Notes under the pieces: generated by a model | The model's input: the letters and a program-made list of their open reading frames with translations, nothing else | The model's database searches: none | What the model was told of the DNA's origin: nothing | From: Aigarchaeota archaeon | Lineage (GTDB): Archaea; Thermoproteota; Nitrososphaeria_A; Caldarchaeales; Calditenuaceae | Reading direction: 5' to 3' | Length of the DNA: 64,000 nucleotides | Assembly (NCBI GenBank): GCA_025059745.1 | Contig: JANXDH010000004.1 | Span: 659,646 to 723,645, forward strand | Translations under genes and position numbers: made by a program | Part shown: piece after piece, positions 2,933 to 34,600 of the stretch | Numbering within the stretch: the stretch's first letter is position 1 | Layout: the number at the start of each line of letters is the position of its first letter

Positions 2933-4252
2933 ATGTCATCTCAGGCTGTGAAGTTAGGGTTCGAGGCCTCTAAACCGAGGTTAATCATAGATAGGTTTCT
3001 CTCCTTACCGCCCCAGAGGGACGACGTCGAGTTCTGGAACGACAAAAGGATCAACCACATAAGACACCTCTCCTCTACCGGGAAACCTTATGCTGTCTGG
3101 GACCCTTGCAAGTACGAGCACCAGACCAGGATACTCGACAGGATCCTCTTCAAGAGGGAACTCGAGGAGACCGATAAGCCCGATCCGCAAGTCCACGAGA
3201 GACTGGAGGAGATCGACGTCTCAACTAAGATAGCTTACGGTCAGCTGGAGATGACCACGCCGATATACTTGGGTGACATGTCATTCGGCGCGTTGAGCGG
3301 CATCCCAAACATAGCGCTCGCGAGGGCCTCTGATATCGCAGGCACGATAACCGGCACGGGTGAGGGCGGTCTTCACCCAGAGGTCCGTAAGTGCAAGAGG
3401 ATAACCGTCCAGTGGGCGTCCGCAAGGTTCGGGGTGGACCTATCAGTGCTTAGGTGCGGGTTAGGCGTTGTCATAAAGATAGGCCAGGGCGCGAAACCCG
3501 GGATAGGCGGTCATCTACCGGGGAGCAAGGTAGTCCAGATAATATCCGAGACGAGGAGGATACCCGTCGGGGTGGACGCAATCTCTCCGGCCCCACACCA
3601 CGACATCTACTCGATCGAGGACCTCGAGCAGAGGATATGGGCACTGAAGGAGGCGACAGGTCACCCAGTCTTCGTGAAGGTCGGTGTGACGAACTACATA
3701 CCGTACATCGCGACGGGCGTGGCTAGGATGGGGGCCGATGGCATCATCATGGACGGTCAGGGTGCAGGTACTGGCGCAGCCCCGGCTGTCGTGAGGGACA
3801 ACGTAGGCCTCCCCATAGAACTCGCAGTCCCCGCTGTCGATGAGGCGTTGAGGAGGGACGGCGTCAGGGAGGGCTTCACGGTCATAGCAGCGGGACGCGT
3901 GAGTAGCGCGGAGGACAGTGCGAAACTCATCGCGTTGGGAGCGGACGTGGTCTCATTGGGCACCGCGGCCCTCATAGGTATGGGTTGCATCATGGTGCAT
4001 AAGTGCCACCTAGGGTTCTGTCCCGCGGTACTAACGAACAAGATCGTCGATAACCCTAACAAGCTGCTCTCCCTAGAGATAGCGACGAAGTGGACCGTCA
4101 ACCTGATAAACGGGTGGACCGCGGAGCTCAGAATGATAATGGAGAGGTTGGGCGTGAGCAGCATCGAGGAGCTTAAGGGTAGGCGCGATCTGTTGGTGGG
4201 CACTGGTCTCAGGGAGGACACCCTGAAGGTCTTGAAGATCAATAAGTTATGA
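2933..4252 (+). CDS. gltB: glutamate synthase FMN/3Fe-4S domain protein (stand-alone)
   Basis: Corresponds to the central FMN-binding synthase domain of glutamate synthase, which converts 2-oxoglutarate and ammonia to glutamate. Visible family features are [17 protein letters not shown] and [14 protein letters not shown], the TIM-barrel segment [11 protein letters not shown], and three cysteines [12 protein letters not shown] (C352, C358, C363) with the C-x5-C-x4-C spacing that ligates the 3Fe-4S cluster. At 439 residues it lacks both the amidotransferase and GXGXG domains, which are supplied by the third gene, and it lacks the N-terminal ferredoxin domain found in some archaeal homologues. 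It overlaps the next gene in ATGA. Confidence 0.92.
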
Positions 4253-5256
4253 GCGACTCCATATGGTCCAACAGAGTGAAGAGACTGCTGAGAGAGATGT
4301 CCGGAGCCGAGGGTAGGCAGGGCGGTGAGGCACCGATCGTTAGCATGGGAACCACAGCACCCCCGATGGTCGAGGTTCCAAGATTCATATTGGACCACTT
4401 GGTGTCTGATGGAGCACAGGTTACCAGGCCCAGCATAGATCCATACCGGGAACCGATCGAGACGCACGTCTACCTCTTCGAGGGTCAACTGAGACTCTCC
4501 ATGCCGGTCTTACTGAGTTGTATGAGGCTCCGCTCTCAATCCCACCTCCACACCGTCTACTCGGTCTCCTACAGGCTCGGTCTGCTGATGATGTGTTCCG
4601 AGGGTCAACTGAGCCACAAACTCGAGGAATGGGGTAAATTCATCGTGAGGGTCTCTGAGGAGAAGCATCGACTGAAGGACGGCAAGTACTGTAAGGAGGC
4701 CCGACTGATGAGGAGGGCCGGCTTAAACGAGACGGGAAAGGTCCAGAGACTCGCGATAGTGCCGTCGATCTTTGATACCGGGGCGGTCCTTGAGTTAGTT
4801 AGGGAGGGTTATGCGGGCATAATTATAGACGAGGATATCGAGGGATCCGATTGCCCCCTAGAGGTCGCGGTTTCTAGGACGGACAGGGCGCTGAAGGAGT
4901 CGAGGGACGTTGCTGGAGACCCGCTCAGATGGAGGGCGTCGATCATCGCCATCTCTAGCAGGGTGCGTGGCTCTCACGACGCCTTCAAACTCCTCGGATT
5001 AGGGGCCGACATAGTCGGGCTGGACGAGACTTGGCAGGTCGGTATCGAGTACTCGGAGGGTATGCCAGACGAGGACCTATCGGATCGTTTAGAAGCCTTC
5101 CTCCTCGCTGTACAGAAGGAGTTAAAGCTACTCGCCGGTGCAGCGGGCGTCAGTAGCCTCTACACCAGCCTCATAGGAAACCGCGAGCTGTTCAGAGGGA
5201 TCGAGCTAGATGCAGAGGTGAGGAGGCTCTTGGGGGTGAAGGCAGCCGGTGAGTGA
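4249..5256 (+). CDS. degenerate paralogue of the glutamate synthase FMN domain, probable non-catalytic subunit
   Basis: A 335-residue protein that aligns by eye with the preceding gene: [13 protein letters not shown] matches [31 protein letters not shown] matches [18 protein letters not shown], and the C-terminal helices [14 protein letters not shown] match [14 protein letters not shown]. The glycine-rich FMN-contacting segments and all three cluster cysteines are absent, so FMN and 3Fe-4S binding are unlikely. It is translationally coupled to both neighbours (4-nt and 8-nt overlaps) with intact reading frame, so it appears to be maintained. A structural or regulatory partner of the synthase is the most likely role; this is inference. 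Confidence 0.7.
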
Positions 5257-7279
5257 CCTCTTTCCATCCCAGGTCAAATCGGGGTGCGGCGTCTTCGGTA
5301 TACTGAGGAAGTATGACGCGCCAAAGATACCATCAGTCATACCACTCACCTCGATCGAGTGCGTGCGTTACAGGGGTAGCAGACTCGGGGCCGGGTTCGC
5401 TAGGTTCGATCAAAGGGGTGTGACCGGACGCAAGAGGCTCAAGGTCTTCGCTGACTCTCTTAAGACCATCTTCGCCCTCTCGAGGTACATCGCTGACAAC
5501 TTCGGGCTGAAGATAGGCGAGGTCTTTGAGGAGTATCAGTCTGAGAGCGGGACGTACGGCTCATACGTCGTTGAGCTCGAGCACTCTGATGATCTGGACC
5601 GCATAGTTAGAGAGGTCAACAGGACCTTCTCAGAGGGTAACTTCTCTGCAAGAGTGTACTGTTGGGGAGACTACGTGGACGTCTCAAAGGGCGTCGGCTA
5701 CCCGAAGGACATACACGAGTTATACAACCTCGCTGAGCGCTCGCCCCCGGGCGACCTTTGGTTGGCACATACGAGACAGCCCACGAACTCCCCGGGCATG
5801 TTACCTGTCTGGTCGCACCCCTTCTCATCGGGCGAGTGGGCGATAGTTCACAACGGCGACATCAGTTCGTTCGGTTCTAACATGGAATTCCTCTTCTCGG
5901 TCGGTTACAGGAGCTTCGTCGGGACGGACAGCGAGGTGATCGCGTACCTGCTGGACCACCTGACGAGCAAGGAGGGGTTGAGCATAGAGGAGGCCGCTGC
6001 GTTGCTCTGTAACGGCTTCGAGGACTTCCTCAACGGCGACCCCATCTTGCCGCTGAGGGTCAAGTACAGGGGGGCGGCACTTGACGGTCCTTTCACAGTC
6101 GTCGCTGGTCACTGCGACGGGAGTGACGTCTACCTCTTAGCACTTACAGACAGGTTCAAGTTCAGACCTATCGTCATCGGTGAGGACGACCACTACTACT
6201 ACGTCGCGAGTGAGGAGGCCGAGATAAGGGCCGTCTCGAGCAGAGCTAGGGTATGGACGCTAGGTCCTGGAGACTTCTTCCTAGCCTCCATGAATCGGGG
6301 AGTCATACACCCGACGGAACAAGTCAAGATCTATCACACACCTCTCACGTTCCATCAGCCCAGACCCCGGGACGGGGCCGTGATAATAGACACAGTAGGC
6401 TCGGATTACCGCGCCCTGAACTCGATGATCCGTAGCTACGTACGCGCGGGCATCAAAGAGATCGACCTAGTGAACGTCAACGGTCAAAGGTACATCGGGG
6501 CTGGCATAGAGGGTGACGCAAAGATAAGGATATACGGAACTCCAGGTAACTGCCTGGCTAATTACAACCAGACCCTGCACTTCGAGGTCTTCGGGAACGC
6601 GCAGGATGACGTGGGCGACGCTATGTACGGCGGGAGCGTTGTAATCCACGGAGATTGCAGGGACGTCTTGGGCCAGGTGCTCCAAGGCGGTTACATCTAC
6701 GTGATGGGCGATGCGGGCAACAGGTGCGGCATACAGATGCGTGAGTTCAGGGACCGGCGCCCCTTCTTGATTATCGGCGGTAAGGTCGATGACTACTTGG
6801 GCGAGTACATGGCAGGTGGGGTCATAGTGGTACTGGGACTGGGTCAGGTCAGGACGGATCGACCCCCCGTAGGCAGGTACGTCGCTACCGGAATGGTCGG
6901 TGGTAGGATATACATCCGGGGACGCGTGCCCCTGAAAAGGATCGGACTCAACCCGGTGCGTGCGGACGTGCTACAGTACCTAGAGGGACTCGTGATGGAC
7001 GGTCTATTAACGGCCGAGCAGTACGAGACGCTGAGATCGATGGAGGACCTCTCATATATCACTTTGGAGGAGGTGCTGCCGAGCGGCGCATACAAGGCCG
7101 TAAGCAGACTGTTCACGAACAAGTACTTCAAACCGTTGAGGGTGGAGTACCGGTACCTTACCCACGACGACCTGTCGTTGATAGGCCCCCACCTCAACAG
7201 CTTCGGCAGCCTCTTCAATCTGACCAGGGAGATCCATGAGGTCACGTCCGAGAAGTTCACCGTTATCGAACCGAGGTGA
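5249..7279 (+). CDS. glutamate synthase glutaminase domain fused to GXGXG domain
   Basis: A 676-residue fusion. The N-terminal class II glutamine amidotransferase begins GCGVFGILRK; the catalytic Cys is C13, so 12 residues would have to be removed to expose it. Further class II signatures are LAHTRQPTNSPG, HNGDISSF and GTDSEVIAYLL. A C-terminal GXGXG beta-helix follows from about residue 400, including NCLANYNQTL, GDAMYGGSVVIHG, GGYIYVMGDAGNRCG and GEYMAGGVIVVLG. In bacterial GltB the FMN domain sits between these two; here it is a separate protein. Last gene of the operon. No GltD-like flavoprotein is nearby, so the electron donor is not visible. Confidence 0.88.
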   Translation: MSDLFPSQVKSGCGVFGILRKYDAPKIPSVIPLTSIECVRYRGSRLGAGFARFDQRGVTGRKRLKVFADSLKTIFALSRYIADNFGLKIGEVFEEYQSESGTYGSYVVELEHSDDLDRIVREVNRTFSEGNFSARVYCWGDYVDVSKGVGYPKDIHELYNLAERSPPGDLWLAHTRQPTNSPGMLPVWSHPFSSGEWAIVHNGDISSFGSNMEFLFSVGYRSFVGTDSEVIAYLLDHLTSKEGLSIEEAAALLCNGFEDFLNGDPILPLRVKYRGAALDGPFTVVAGHCDGSDVYLLALTDRFKFRPIVIGEDDHYYYVASEEAEIRAVSSRARVWTLGPGDFFLASMNRGVIHPTEQVKIYHTPLTFHQPRPRDGAVIIDTVGSDYRALNSMIRSYVRAGIKEIDLVNVNGQRYIGAGIEGDAKIRIYGTPGNCLANYNQTLHFEVFGNAQDDVGDAMYGGSVVIHGDCRDVLGQVLQGGYIYVMGDAGNRCGIQMREFRDRRPFLIIGGKVDDYLGEYMAGGVIVVLGLGQVRTDRPPVGRYVATGMVGGRIYIRGRVPLKRIGLNPVRADVLQYLEGLVMDGLLTAEQYETLRSMEDLSYITLEEVLPSGAYKAVSRLFTNKYFKPLRVEYRYLTHDDLSLIGPHLNSFGSLFNLTREIHEVTSEKFTVIEPR

Positions 7280-30251: not shown

Positions 30252-31101
30252 GGTAGGAGATCCCTGCGGACACGAAGACGACCTTGAGAGAGAAGCCGTA
30301 TAGACCTCGCATGGTCAGACCTACATAAGCTAACAAGATGACCCAGGCGATCGCTGACGCCACGTAAGCGATGAGGGCCGGTTGGACCTCCGGTTGGAAC
30401 CTGTATGACTTGTACGTATCTACCTCCAACCTCTCCCACATCAACCTCTCCACACTCACATCTCCCAGCTTTATGATCTCATCGTTCACCCTGATCGTGG
30501 CGCCTCTCAGCTCTACCTTCCAATGCTCGTCCAACCCATTACCAGTTGAGTTAGACCTCTCCATTTTCGCGATAAGTCCATCGGCCCGCATCATTATCGC
30601 GCTCCTATTTATCGTGGTTCCATTCACGATCAGGGTGCCTGATAGCTCAACGTTCTCCATCTTCAGCCCCTCGACCTCCAGCTCGACGAGCTGTATCGTA
30701 ACGTTCGGGGAGGTTAACGCCACTGGGAAGAGCAGGAGCGAGAAGATCGCTAAAATCACGTAGGAGTGCATGATGGCACTGATCAGAGAGGAGGTCTTGC
30801 TCTCCTTGACCTCTAAGAAGAAGACGATGAGCCTCTGGACCAGAACGAGCACCAAGAACGTCAGGACCACGTAGGTCACTCTGCCGAATACCAGGTCCCG
30901 GAGGGAGGTCCCCGGTACGTATATCTCGGATAGATTTGGTATGGTGAGGTCGAACTCCAACTTGACGAACTGATAGTAGGCCTCTGTGAATATCATGGTG
31001 GTTAAAGATAGCCCGAATAAAATGCTACCTCTGATTATGCTGTTCCGGTCCCTCAGGGCCCTCCCCAAAGCGAGGGGGCTGAAGACCTCTAAAGCCCACA
31101 A
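30223..31101 (-). CDS. membrane protein with extracytoplasmic domain, unknown function
   Basis: A 292-residue protein with about six hydrophobic helices: three in the N-terminal half (SILFGLSLTTMIF, YVVLTFLVLVLVQRLIVFFL, SYVILAIFSLLLFPVAL) and three near the end. A loop of about 110 residues between them is rich in Asn-x-Ser/Thr sequons (NVT, NGT, NRS, NST), suggesting an N-glycosylated outer domain. The layout recalls Yip1-like archaeal membrane proteins, but this is not certain. Its start overlaps nth by 13 nt. Confidence 0.7.
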   Translation of the reverse strand: MWALEVFSPLALGRALRDRNSIIRGSILFGLSLTTMIFTEAYYQFVKLEFDLTIPNLSEIYVPGTSLRDLVFGRVTYVVLTFLVLVLVQRLIVFFLEVKESKTSSLISAIMHSYVILAIFSLLLFPVALTSPNVTIQLVELEVEGLKMENVELSGTLIVNGTTINRSAIMMRADGLIAKMERSNSTGNGLDEHWKVELRGATIRVNDEIIKLGDVSVERLMWERLEVDTYKSYRFQPEVQPALIAYVASAIAWVILLAYVGLTMRGLYGFSLKVVFVSAGISYLTLLIFGLI

Positions 31102-31835
31102 TCCAGAGATCGCTCCTCCTCGCTCCTCATATATCTGATGTAGCGCCCCCTCTTAGTTTGATAATACTTACAGAGACTACTGAGAGAGCACGTATGGCAG
31201 TGCGGGTTGATCGGTTTGCACACCCTCCTCCCGTGAGTTATCAGGAGAAGGTGCGCCTCGTGCCTGAGATGGGGGGGAAACAGACTATCGAGTCTCGATC
31301 TGACGTCCTCATACCCGTCCCCCTCCTCGGATATGCCGAGACGCTTACTGATCCTGAAGATGTGGGTATCGACCGGTACGGTCTGAGACATACCTGTCGT
31401 CACTAGCACCACGTCAGCGGTCTTCGGGCCTATCCCCTTGATACTCGTTAGATACCTCCTCGGATCTACAACCCCACCCCTCAAGAGGCGCGAGAGGTCG
31501 CCTGAGAAGTCCCTTTGAACGATCCTTGAGACCTCCTTGATCGTTCTCGCTTTCTGTCTATATAGACCAGCGCTCCTTATAGCCGACCGTATTCTCCTCA
31601 GATCTGCCCTCGCGAGCCTGGACGGCGAGACGCCGATCGAGTCGTTCAACTTACGGAAGGCCTCGAATGCAACTCTGTCCGTAGAGTTCTGGGAGAGTAT
31701 GGTGGCTATCAAGACTTTGAACGGGTCGGATGTTAACCTCGCTACGTAGGACGATATGAAGCGCTCGAGCTCCACCTCGTGCATGGACCTCAGCCGCGCG
31801 ATGATCTCGGTCCCGGATCGCTCAACCAAAGACAT
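31089..31835 (-). CDS. nth: endonuclease III-family DNA glycosylase
   Basis: A 248-residue base-excision repair glycosylase/AP lyase for oxidised pyrimidines. The helix-hairpin-helix SIKGIGPKTADVVL carries the catalytic lysine, VPVDTHIFRISKRLG contains the catalytic aspartate, and the 4Fe-4S loop is CKPINPHCHTCSLSSLC (C-x6-C-x2-C-x5-C). Eighteen to twenty residues follow the cluster. Divergent from nuoI. Confidence 0.95.
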   Translation of the reverse strand: MSLVERSGTEIIARLRSMHEVELERFISSYVARLTSDPFKVLIATILSQNSTDRVAFEAFRKLNDSIGVSPSRLARADLRRIRSAIRSAGLYRQKARTIKEVSRIVQRDFSGDLSRLLRGGVVDPRRYLTSIKGIGPKTADVVLVTTGMSQTVPVDTHIFRISKRLGISEEGDGYEDVRSRLDSLFPPHLRHEAHLLLITHGRRVCKPINPHCHTCSLSSLCKYYQTKRGRYIRYMRSEEERSLDCGL

Positions 31836-31904: not shown

Positions 31905-32822
31905 ATGAGCGCGCTCAAGGACCTTCTGAGACCTATGTTCACCGGTCTTAAATTGTTGTTCCAGAAACCCTACACCATAAAGTACCCCTACGAGGAGATG
32001 CCTAACCTCCCCGAGACCAATTACAGGTACGACCCTAAGGCGAGTATAGCGTATCCAGGATACAAGGGCCGTCACGTGCTTTACATGGATAAGTGCACCG
32101 GGTGTAGCCTCTGTGACATAGCGTGCTCCTACGTCTCCGAGGCGATCACTATGGTCTACGCATTCGAGGTCAAGCTTCAATTCGATGAGAGGGTGTACGG
32201 CATGATTAAACAGGGGAACCCAACAGCGATCGAGGCGATCGATACACTCGCAGCTAACATCTCGGATATTAACAGCGAGGTTTACCAGAAGAGAGGCGCC
32301 TCACATCCATTGATGTGCCTCCTGATAGACCTCAAGCAGGTCACGAAGGTAGAGAACCAGTATCAACTCAGATTCAACGCGGACACGATATGGGAGCACA
32401 GCAGCGACCTCTTGGTGGAGAGATACCTCAGGGGTGGATTGGGGGAGCTAGAGGGGAAGGGTTGGAGCGTTGAGCTCATAGAGGACAAGTCACCAGAGAG
32501 TGTGATGTATAAGATAGAGAGAGACGGTCTGACCTTCTTCCTTTCGATCTCCAAATCCGACTTCAAGTTAACCAACAACAAGAAGTCCTACTTTCCACAG
32601 GTTGATTACGGCCGTTGCGTCTTCTGCGGCCTCTGCGTGGACGCTTGCCCGTTCTACGCGCTCGAGATGAGTCCGGACGTGGAGCTATCTGCCCTGGAGA
32701 GGCCAGGACTCGTCTACAACCCCATATCGTTAGCGCCCAAGAAGATCTCGACCGTGCAGCCATCGATCAACCCGATCGACGCCTTCTATGGGTGGTTCAG
32801 GAGGAAAATCAGGTGGGAGTAG
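31905..32822 (+). CDS. nuoI: complex I subunit NuoI-like ferredoxin with a large insertion
   Basis: A 305-residue protein with two 4Fe-4S motifs typical of the 23-kDa complex I subunit: CTGCSLCDIAC (C64, C67, C70, C74) and CVFCGLCVDACP (C238, C241, C244, C248). The N-terminus (LFQKPYTIKYPYE) and the YKGRHVLYMDKC lead-in fit NuoI. In ordinary NuoI the motifs are separated by a few dozen residues; here about 163 separate them and the inserted part has no known motif. The proline after the first motif is absent. The ATG at 31905 is chosen; earlier in-frame codons read into nth. NuoH and NuoA are just downstream, convergent. Confidence 0.82.
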   Translation: MSALKDLLRPMFTGLKLLFQKPYTIKYPYEEMPNLPETNYRYDPKASIAYPGYKGRHVLYMDKCTGCSLCDIACSYVSEAITMVYAFEVKLQFDERVYGMIKQGNPTAIEAIDTLAANISDINSEVYQKRGASHPLMCLLIDLKQVTKVENQYQLRFNADTIWEHSSDLLVERYLRGGLGELEGKGWSVELIEDKSPESVMYKIERDGLTFFLSISKSDFKLTNNKKSYFPQVDYGRCVFCGLCVDACPFYALEMSPDVELSALERPGLVYNPISLAPKKISTVQPSINPIDAFYGWFRRKIRWE

Positions 32823-32823
32823 C

Positions 32824-33168
32824 TTGCTGCTCGAGAAGAGCGAGGAGGTCAGAGACCTCTGGTTCGTGCTGAGAACCATAATAAAGAATCTGAGGAACTT
32901 CCTCGATACCGAGAACTACGGCTACGTGGTAGAGGCTTACAAGGCGCACACGAGGATACACTCCGAGGACCTGAGCCAGAATCTGTGGGGGTGGACTGAT
33001 CTGGTCGAAAACCTCAGGTCGATGTACGAGAAGGTCACCTCCAACGATATGAAGCTGTCAACTATAGAGCACGGATCTTTGGTACAGCAGGCCGTCTACA
33101 CCATCAGTAGGGCGAACATAATGTGCGTCGGTCTGGAGTTCAGGCTGAAGAGGCTCAAGGGAGGCTGA
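32824..33168 (+). CDS. hypothetical protein coupled to nuoI
   Basis: A 114-residue helical, charged protein starting with TTG one nucleotide after the nuoI stop. Features include EEVRDLWFVLRTIIKNLRNF and WGWTDLVENLRSMYEKV; there is no membrane segment and only one cysteine. I do not recognise it. The position between nuoI and nuoH makes a complex I accessory or assembly role plausible, but nothing in the sequence proves it. Confidence 0.6.
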   Translation: MLLEKSEEVRDLWFVLRTIIKNLRNFLDTENYGYVVEAYKAHTRIHSEDLSQNLWGWTDLVENLRSMYEKVTSNDMKLSTIEHGSLVQQAVYTISRANIMCVGLEFRLKRLKGG

Positions 33169-34212
33169 TCAGAGGAATTCTACGAATAGTATCACTATGA
33201 ACAAGTTCAGGAAGCCTAGTGGTATTAGGTACTTCCACCCAAGGTCTAGGACCTTCTCAATTGTGAACCTCGGAAATATGGCCCTGAACATAAAGATTAC
33301 CGTCAATACCAAGAAGGTCTTGATCATCAGCCAGAAGGGGGCATAGATCGACTCAGGCAGACCGGGTATAGGAGGACCGTGCCAACCGCCAAGGTAGAGC
33401 AGTGAGGTCAGGACGCTCAGTGCGATGAGTTTCTCGTATAAAGCGAGATATATCATAAGGAAGTAGGCCCCGGAGTACTCTGTACCCCAACCCGATACTA
33501 TCTCACCCTCGGCCGTCGGTATATCGAAGGGCACCCTCTCAGCCTCTGCCAGCACAGTGGTGAAGAAGACGATGAACCCTATGATCTGAGGAATTATGAA
33601 AGGCACGGCGGACTGAGCCTCCACGATCTTGACTAGGTTGAAGGACCCAGACATCAACACGACGCCCGTGAGGGCGATAAACATAGGAATCTCATACCCG
33701 AAGAGCATCAACGCAAGCCTCGTAGTCCCGATTAGTGGGTACTTGCTCCCCGAGGCGTAGCCTGCGACCAGAAGAGGGACCGGAGTGAGCGCGGAGACCG
33801 CGAAGAATAGAAGCAACCCAATCTCTGAGGGGAATATAATCCAACTGGGACTGAATGGGAGGAAGGCATACAAGAGCAAGCTTAAAATGAGGACTGTCGC
33901 CGGCATGAGCACGAAGAGGGCCTTGTTCGCGTTCTCGGGTACGATCCTCTCCTTGCTCAGCAGTTTCAACCCGTCAGCGAGCGTCTGGAGTATCCCGCTC
34001 ACCTTTCCGACGTGGAGAGGGCCGACTCTAAGCATGATCCTAGCCAGTAGTTTCCTCTCGTACCAGAGGGCGAAGAGCCCCAGCAGGGTGCTGAAGATCG
34101 CACCGGGGAAGATTACAGCCTTGACGAAGGCCTCGCTGAATATGAACCTCATCAGGAGTTGTAACGCGCCCGGTAGACTGTTATACAGTGGTAGGATCTC
34201 CTCGCCGACCAA
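33169..34212 (-). CDS. nuoH: complex I subunit NuoH
   Basis: A 347-residue membrane subunit at the quinone-binding junction. About eight hydrophobic helices are visible, with the family loops GPLHVGKVSGILQTLADGLKL and AEAERVPFDIPTAEGEIVSGW in the expected order. Follows nuoA by 4 nt. Its stop codon abuts that of the convergent gene. Confidence 0.96.
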   Translation of the reverse strand: MVGEEILPLYNSLPGALQLLMRFIFSEAFVKAVIFPGAIFSTLLGLFALWYERKLLARIMLRVGPLHVGKVSGILQTLADGLKLLSKERIVPENANKALFVLMPATVLILSLLLYAFLPFSPSWIIFPSEIGLLLFFAVSALTPVPLLVAGYASGSKYPLIGTTRLALMLFGYEIPMFIALTGVVLMSGSFNLVKIVEAQSAVPFIIPQIIGFIVFFTTVLAEAERVPFDIPTAEGEIVSGWGTEYSGAYFLMIYLALYEKLIALSVLTSLLYLGGWHGPPIPGLPESIYAPFWLMIKTFLVLTVIFMFRAIFPRFTIEKVLDLGWKYLIPLGFLNLFIVILFVEFL

Positions 34213-34216
34213 GGTA

Positions 34217-34600
34217 TCACACCCTCTGCTTCAACTTCGGGATCTGGGTGCTGAGGTAGAACGAACCAAGAGTGATGGCCCCTATTACGATCAGGGCCCT
34301 CAACGCCCCCTCCCTCGTCACCAATAGGGGTGTCACGGAGAAGAAGGCTATCAATGCCAGGACCGCGTAGGAGACGTATATTATCACGTAGGGGAAGTAC
34401 TCGATCGGGTACCTCGAGAAGCTCCAGGGTATGGGCGTCTGGCCCGACTCGAACGCCATCCTCTTTATCCTCTTTGGTCGCGAGGGCGCGAGCAACCACG
34501 AGATCTCATAGAACCCGATGGGCGCTAGGATGAGAAGGATCACATAGAGAACGAAGGGATCGCTCAGCGGGCCGAACTCGCTCATAGTTACTTGATCCAT
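34217..34600 (-). CDS. nuoA: complex I subunit NuoA
   Basis: A 127-residue three-helix membrane subunit. The conserved loop is FESGQTPIPWSFSRYPIEYF, with helices LYVILLILAPIGFYEISWLL, YVIIYVSYAVLALIAFF and ALIVIGAITLGSFYL. It starts a two-gene nuoA-nuoH unit. The other complex I subunits (B, C, D, J-N) are not in the window. Confidence 0.93.
   Translation of the reverse strand: MDQVTMSEFGPLSDPFVLYVILLILAPIGFYEISWLLAPSRPKRIKRMAFESGQTPIPWSFSRYPIEYFPYVIIYVSYAVLALIAFFSVTPLLVTREGALRALIVIGAITLGSFYLSTQIPKLKQRV

Follow-up and report, generated by a model that had tools for sequence, protein, structure and literature searches.

Introduction

Few parts of complex I are as conserved as NuoI (Nqo9/TYKY), whose two clusters are usually separated by a short linker. 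How archaeal complex I without an NADH module is fed with electrons is in general mostly unknown. In the F420H2 dehydrogenase (Fpo) of methanogens, an archaeal complex I core is combined with an alternative input subunit, FpoF. Cyanobacterial NDH-1L, which also has no NADH module, has the small subunits NdhS, NdhV and NdhO at its ferredoxin site; NdhS is reported to be seated in an NdhI groove and to keep NdhV in place for the binding of ferredoxin in a positive pocket (PMC7021789). Ferredoxin has likewise been suggested as the electron source in Desulfitobacterium, whose enzyme has 11 subunits (PMC11238625).

Here we describe a nuo locus from an Aigarchaeota archaeon of the order Caldarchaeales, found in a stretch of 64,000 nucleotides (hereafter the window). 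Its NuoI resembles the thaumarchaeal type in the two 4Fe-4S motifs, core sequence, fold and nuo neighborhood, and differs from it by an inserted domain. The complex is similar to NDH-1L (PMC7021789) in lacking the NADH module and in having a small lineage-specific subunit candidate next to the NuoI homolog at the input end; in NDH-1L, however, the added parts are proteins of their own, and NdhI lacks a domain of this kind. The insert is not mentioned in the open-access PMC literature as far as it was searched, nor in the text accessed of two published surveys of the group (PMC6053391, PMC10547907).

A NuoI With a Domain Between Its Two Cluster Motifs

Judged by its sequence, the open reading frame at the center of the locus (Table 1) encodes NuoI of complex I, nearest to the thaumarchaeal type. 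Pfam detected 4Fe-4S matches at both ends of the protein and nothing else. The best NCBIfam family was NuoI (TIGR01971), for which the protein scores 80 bits and the cut-off is 113; the ordinary short relative L043 also stays below the cut-off (89 bits). The core fold matches subunit I chains of complex I with Z-scores of 9-11 over about 93 to 117 residues (for example 6khi_I, Z 11.0, rmsd 3.4, 99 aligned residues). Translation, which met no stop in the frame, confirmed what a sequence-only reading of the window had noticed, namely that both CxxCxxCxxxC motifs are complete and that they lie many times the normal distance apart. Between C74 and C238 there are 163 residues, and the distance from first cysteine to first cysteine is 174, versus 42 in the five nearest short NuoI (L042, L043, L032, L034, L035) and 42, 40 and 33 in L037, L038 and L044, L036 being left out of this comparison. 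The same reading had counted about 145 extra residues. The insert is indeed large, but a little smaller than that: about 132 residues relative to the nearest short relatives, and 111 to 135 over the 28 measured rows of the order.

Table 1. Features of the nuo locus, given as positions in the window.
Feature	Coordinates	Strand	Basis
nuoI with inserted domain	31905..32822	+	305 aa; open frame; NuoI as best NCBIfam family; core fold match
First 4Fe-4S motif (C64-C67-C70-C74)	32094..32126	+	Translation; all Cys invariant across the 36 aligned NuoI rows
Inserted domain, about residues 84-219	32154..32561	+	Alignment with short NuoI; structure models; profile search
Second 4Fe-4S motif (C238-C241-C244-C248)	32616..32648	+	Translation; all Cys invariant across the 36 aligned NuoI rows
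Small conserved gene (dORF), candidate new complex I accessory subunit	32788..33168	+	Shared distribution; conserved family; nearness to nuoA
nuoH	33169..34212	-	Pfam NADHdh, 1.5e-93
nuoA	34217..34600	-	Pfam Oxidored_q4, 3.8e-8

By alignment, the domain follows directly on the strand 'AITMV' and stops short of 'NKKS', which places it within the hairpin joining both halves of the ferredoxin fold, and it spans 119 to 143 residues including a few flanking ones, compared with 2 to 10 in nine short forms. AlphaFold predicted it confidently as a separately folded domain. The whole-NuoI model (36 sequences) has a mean pLDDT of 82, with values above 90 for the greater part of the domain and a loose loop spanning residues 121-140, and the model of the domain alone (30 sequences) contains the same elements (mean pLDDT 82, pTM 0.77), in the order strand, two helices, short strands, long helix and three strands. 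In the whole-chain model the domain is bordered by strands 81-93 and 209-217, so it would sit on a lengthened hairpin with both cluster sites untouched.

Relatives of the domain were not found in Pfam or PHROGs, and nothing appeared below E 0.16 in a sequence search of the PDB or below E 0.27 when Foldseek was run with the domain model. The best VIA-align result was the kinetoplastid protein 6xyb_C (Z 6.0, rmsd 3.0, 90 aligned residues), tied with 6xyd; because this score is tied and below the meaningful level, we claim the domain neither as a known nor as a new fold. Three candidate relatives were rejected by hhalign: a domain duplicated from NuoC, considered because strands and helix follow each other in a similar way (probability 0.2), the small downstream protein (3.3) and a two-helix membrane protein encoded upstream of nuoB (0.1).

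Among 30 aligned rows, the net charge of the domain ranges from -9 to 0 (mean -5.6), and no cysteine is conserved in even half of the rows, so the domain is not a further cluster site. The domain is under purifying selection (of 13 pairs, two are saturated and the other 11 give dN/dS 0.05 to 0.27), but this is weaker than that on the NuoI core, where one of 13 pairs is saturated and the other 12 lie between 0 and 0.05.

Distribution and Origin of the Domain

Domain-bearing NuoI was detected in 30 of the 44 genomes of the order (matches at E <= 1e-12). No short linker, which would have pointed to an assembly or frame error, was found among these close relatives: all 30 orthologs carry the domain, 28 of them in one unbroken frame and two (G001 and G033) together with an intein at the second motif. 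The remaining 14 genomes (G012, G015, G027, G030, G031, G032, G035-G038, G040-G043) have no NuoI of this kind, and NuoA is present in 13 of them, G027 being the exception. A profile of the domain gave 30 strong matches in 398 genomes of the phylum, by which the domain appears specific to Caldarchaeales. One weak match in G054 (E 1.3e-4, positions 54-111) falls in a 118-aa open reading frame without a Pfam match, and those in five other genomes (0.010 to 0.035) were taken as chance. Outside the order, nine aligned NuoI lack the domain, their open frames being 152 to 209 aa long; a tenth, L033, also has no domain and contains an intein.

On a tree of the NuoI core (39 rows), the 28 domain rows form one group (support 90/95), placed beside a set of five short thaumarchaeal-type NuoI with weak support (84/86). 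With the domain rows in a single group, one insertion in an ancestor is the simplest reading. A second complex-I-like gene set occurs at L082 (G012), L083 (G036) and L084 (G026). Its short NuoI (112 aa in L082, 147 aa in L084) both branch far away on the tree and belong to a different, paralogous complex. Both complex types are present in G026, where the second set adjoins the domain-bearing NuoI.

A Small Downstream Gene and an Extended NuoB

Directly downstream of nuoI lies a small gene, dORF. As listed it encodes 126 aa; an in-frame TTG at 32824 would give 114 aa, closer to the length of its relatives (about 115 aa) and without overlap with nuoI. Across 23 aligned rows, 11 columns are invariant; the small protein is more strongly conserved than the domain, with K121 and R122 near its end. 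Values of dN/dS were 0.05 to 0.13 in the seven pairs with both copies, some rows of which include untrimmed codons upstream of the start, and dORF is under purifying selection.

No family match specific to dORF was found in NCBIfam, or in Pfam for the 23 members, and the NdhS, NdhV and NdhO families were not among the Pfam matches of these members at E <= 1. Several weak hits were set aside. Peptidase_S41_N matches three alignment members (best 6.6e-5) and DUF6664 four (best 0.0064), with 16 or more members not matching in either case, and both were taken as chance. The best PDB hit, a histidine kinase-Gcn4 chimera (E 0.0019), was taken as a helix match.

The dORF profile gave 29 strong matches in the 398 genomes of the phylum, corresponding to the 30 domain carriers minus G008, whose genome is 57% complete; weak matches in five further genomes (0.011 to 0.047) were regarded as chance. 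In all 29 genomes dORF lies within 1.7 kb of nuoA, and in 26 it is also within 3 kb of nuoI. In the other three (G001, G004, G006) nuoI has moved away and dORF has stayed with nuoA. The profile search found dORF in none of the 14 genomes of the order without domain-type NuoI, which indicates that dORF goes with the domain-type complex.

A third feature was found in NuoB, which has about 50 extra N-terminal residues in all eight domain-type genomes that were read. The profile of this extension produced 29 strong matches in the phylum, namely 28 of the 30 domain carriers and G030; the two carriers without a match, G004 and G008, also yielded no NuoC. Weak matches in 24 genomes (0.0016 to 0.05) were put down to chance. 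Domain, dORF and NuoB extension thus share their distribution. As all carriers derive from one ancestor, the matching distributions represent few independent events.

In G030, rated 95% complete, nuoA, nuoH and the extended NuoB are located on G030:C122 and G030:C18. Neither domain-type NuoI nor the small gene was found in this assembly, which may reflect missing assembly or joint loss of both.

The full gene order is best seen in G013, where the genes for a 209-aa protein, nuoB, nuoC, nuoD, nuoI, dORF, nuoA and nuoH follow each other head to tail on one strand. NuoA, NuoB, NuoC and NuoH were found in the genome of the window, and NuoD is known here from relatives. Proteins of 200-211 aa with two likely membrane helices near the end were observed at L087:8703-9335 (G000:C3), L048, L049, L090, L091, L093 and L094; L090 has the gene next to nuoA, the other six loci upstream of nuoB. 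This protein has no Pfam family above the cut-off and was not seen in L088 or L092, and is therefore less constant than dORF.

Electron Input and Possible Roles of the Additions

NuoF was found in none of the 30 domain carriers and in four of the 44 genomes of the order, all non-carriers (search controls were positive in 9 of 14). NADH would therefore not enter by the usual route. An FrhB/FpoF-type protein, which would liken the complex to Fpo with its FpoF, is present in just nine of the 30 carriers and in none of the 12 genomes of the family of the window, so the donor may differ among carriers. Given that NuoF is missing and FrhB/FpoF-type proteins occur in few carriers, N6a in NuoI is the likely entry point for electrons in the domain-bearing complex, and by analogy with other complexes the donor to N6a is probably ferredoxin.

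The domain-bearing NuoI is real, conserved and order-specific, and is a member of a three-part set. Together, the domain, dORF and the longer NuoB suggest that the order rebuilt the part of complex I near electron entry. We see about an even chance that these parts are an addition peculiar to this lineage, made to the peripheral arm of a complex I that has no NADH module, and serve as a platform near clusters N6a and N6b. The domain would have been inserted once, in the hairpin joining the two ferredoxin-like halves of NuoI, and would most likely form, with the small protein and the N-terminus of NuoB, a platform on the peripheral arm beside N6a, N6b and N2. Because the small protein is more conserved than the acidic, variable domain and carries K121 and R122, we infer that the domain may be a fixed foothold keeping the small subunit at the open end of the arm, and that the small protein may be the working part. 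A cytoplasmic donor, most likely ferredoxin, would pass electrons to N6a at this open end, in an arrangement that could be likened to NdhS holding NdhV beside NdhI in cyanobacterial NDH-1. The sequence-only reading had proposed a new arm contacting an alternative electron donor or a partner. The separate predicted fold, the co-distributed dORF and the lack of NuoF in the carriers agree with this, but the negative charge of the domain, as opposed to the positive pocket of NDH-1L, speaks against the domain itself as the ferredoxin-binding face. A bolder version, in which the three parts are a new input module replacing the NADH module, with the small protein as a new subunit and a donor other than NADH and, in the family of the window, other than F420H2, seems to us doubtful.

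The main rival to the foothold and working-part reading is a purely structural role, which we regard as a possible though less probable explanation: domain, dORF and NuoB extension would stiffen or assemble the peripheral arm, for example against heat, and would have no part in donor binding. Other complexes I have gained accessory subunits with only a stabilizing role, and an acidic, variable domain without conserved cysteines would suit such a function. Yet other archaeal lineages of hot habitats, for example those of L036 (Pyrodictiaceae) and L038 (Desulfurococcales), have a short NuoI that lacks the domain, so heat alone gives no reason for it. A surface domain that evolves fast and has a small partner of its own would also be compatible with a supercomplex or regulatory arm, by which the complex would dock to a regulator or a different membrane enzyme instead of an electron donor; the position of the domain between the NuoI clusters points to the input end, however, and we think this docking role unlikely. 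That the domain is an artefact (frame error, misassembly, gene fusion or decayed intein) is hardly credible. The existence of inteins in NuoI of relatives gives the last of these some footing, but the domain itself has no Intein_splicing or LAGLIDADG match in Pfam, no initial cysteine and no terminal His-Asn|Cys, and the genuine inteins of G001 and G033 are inserted not here but at the second motif, and both proteins carry the domain as well. These features, with the profile search and the recurrence of the same domain in 30 genomes, rule out such errors, and the earlier idea that the frame might belong to a fusion was rejected on the same recurrence and on the gap-free frame in 28 genomes.

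A three-part, order-specific addition at the input end offers concrete proteins for study, and a likely accessory subunit, dORF, would be missed by annotation because no family model exists for it.

Inteins and Neighboring Genes

The NuoI inteins were located at L039:9252-11270 (G001), at L040:8601-10490 (G033) and in L033 (VBPQ01000061.1, a thaumarchaeal MAG). They occupy two sites at the second 4Fe-4S motif, before the third cysteine in G001 and before the first in G033 and L033. No paper combining intein and NuoI was found in the open PMC literature. In Pfam, the intein of G001 matches LAGLIDADG_3 (1.7e-13) and, weakly, a splicing domain (1.4e-4).

Elsewhere in the window, three consecutive open reading frames on the forward strand (2933-7279) presumably represent glutamate synthase domains encoded as separate genes, as they read by eye. 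Just upstream of nuoI, an open reading frame on the reverse strand (31089-31835) reads, again by eye, like endonuclease III. A homolog of this reading frame adjoins nuoI in L046, L050, L052 and L054, the f1 loci that cover the stretch.
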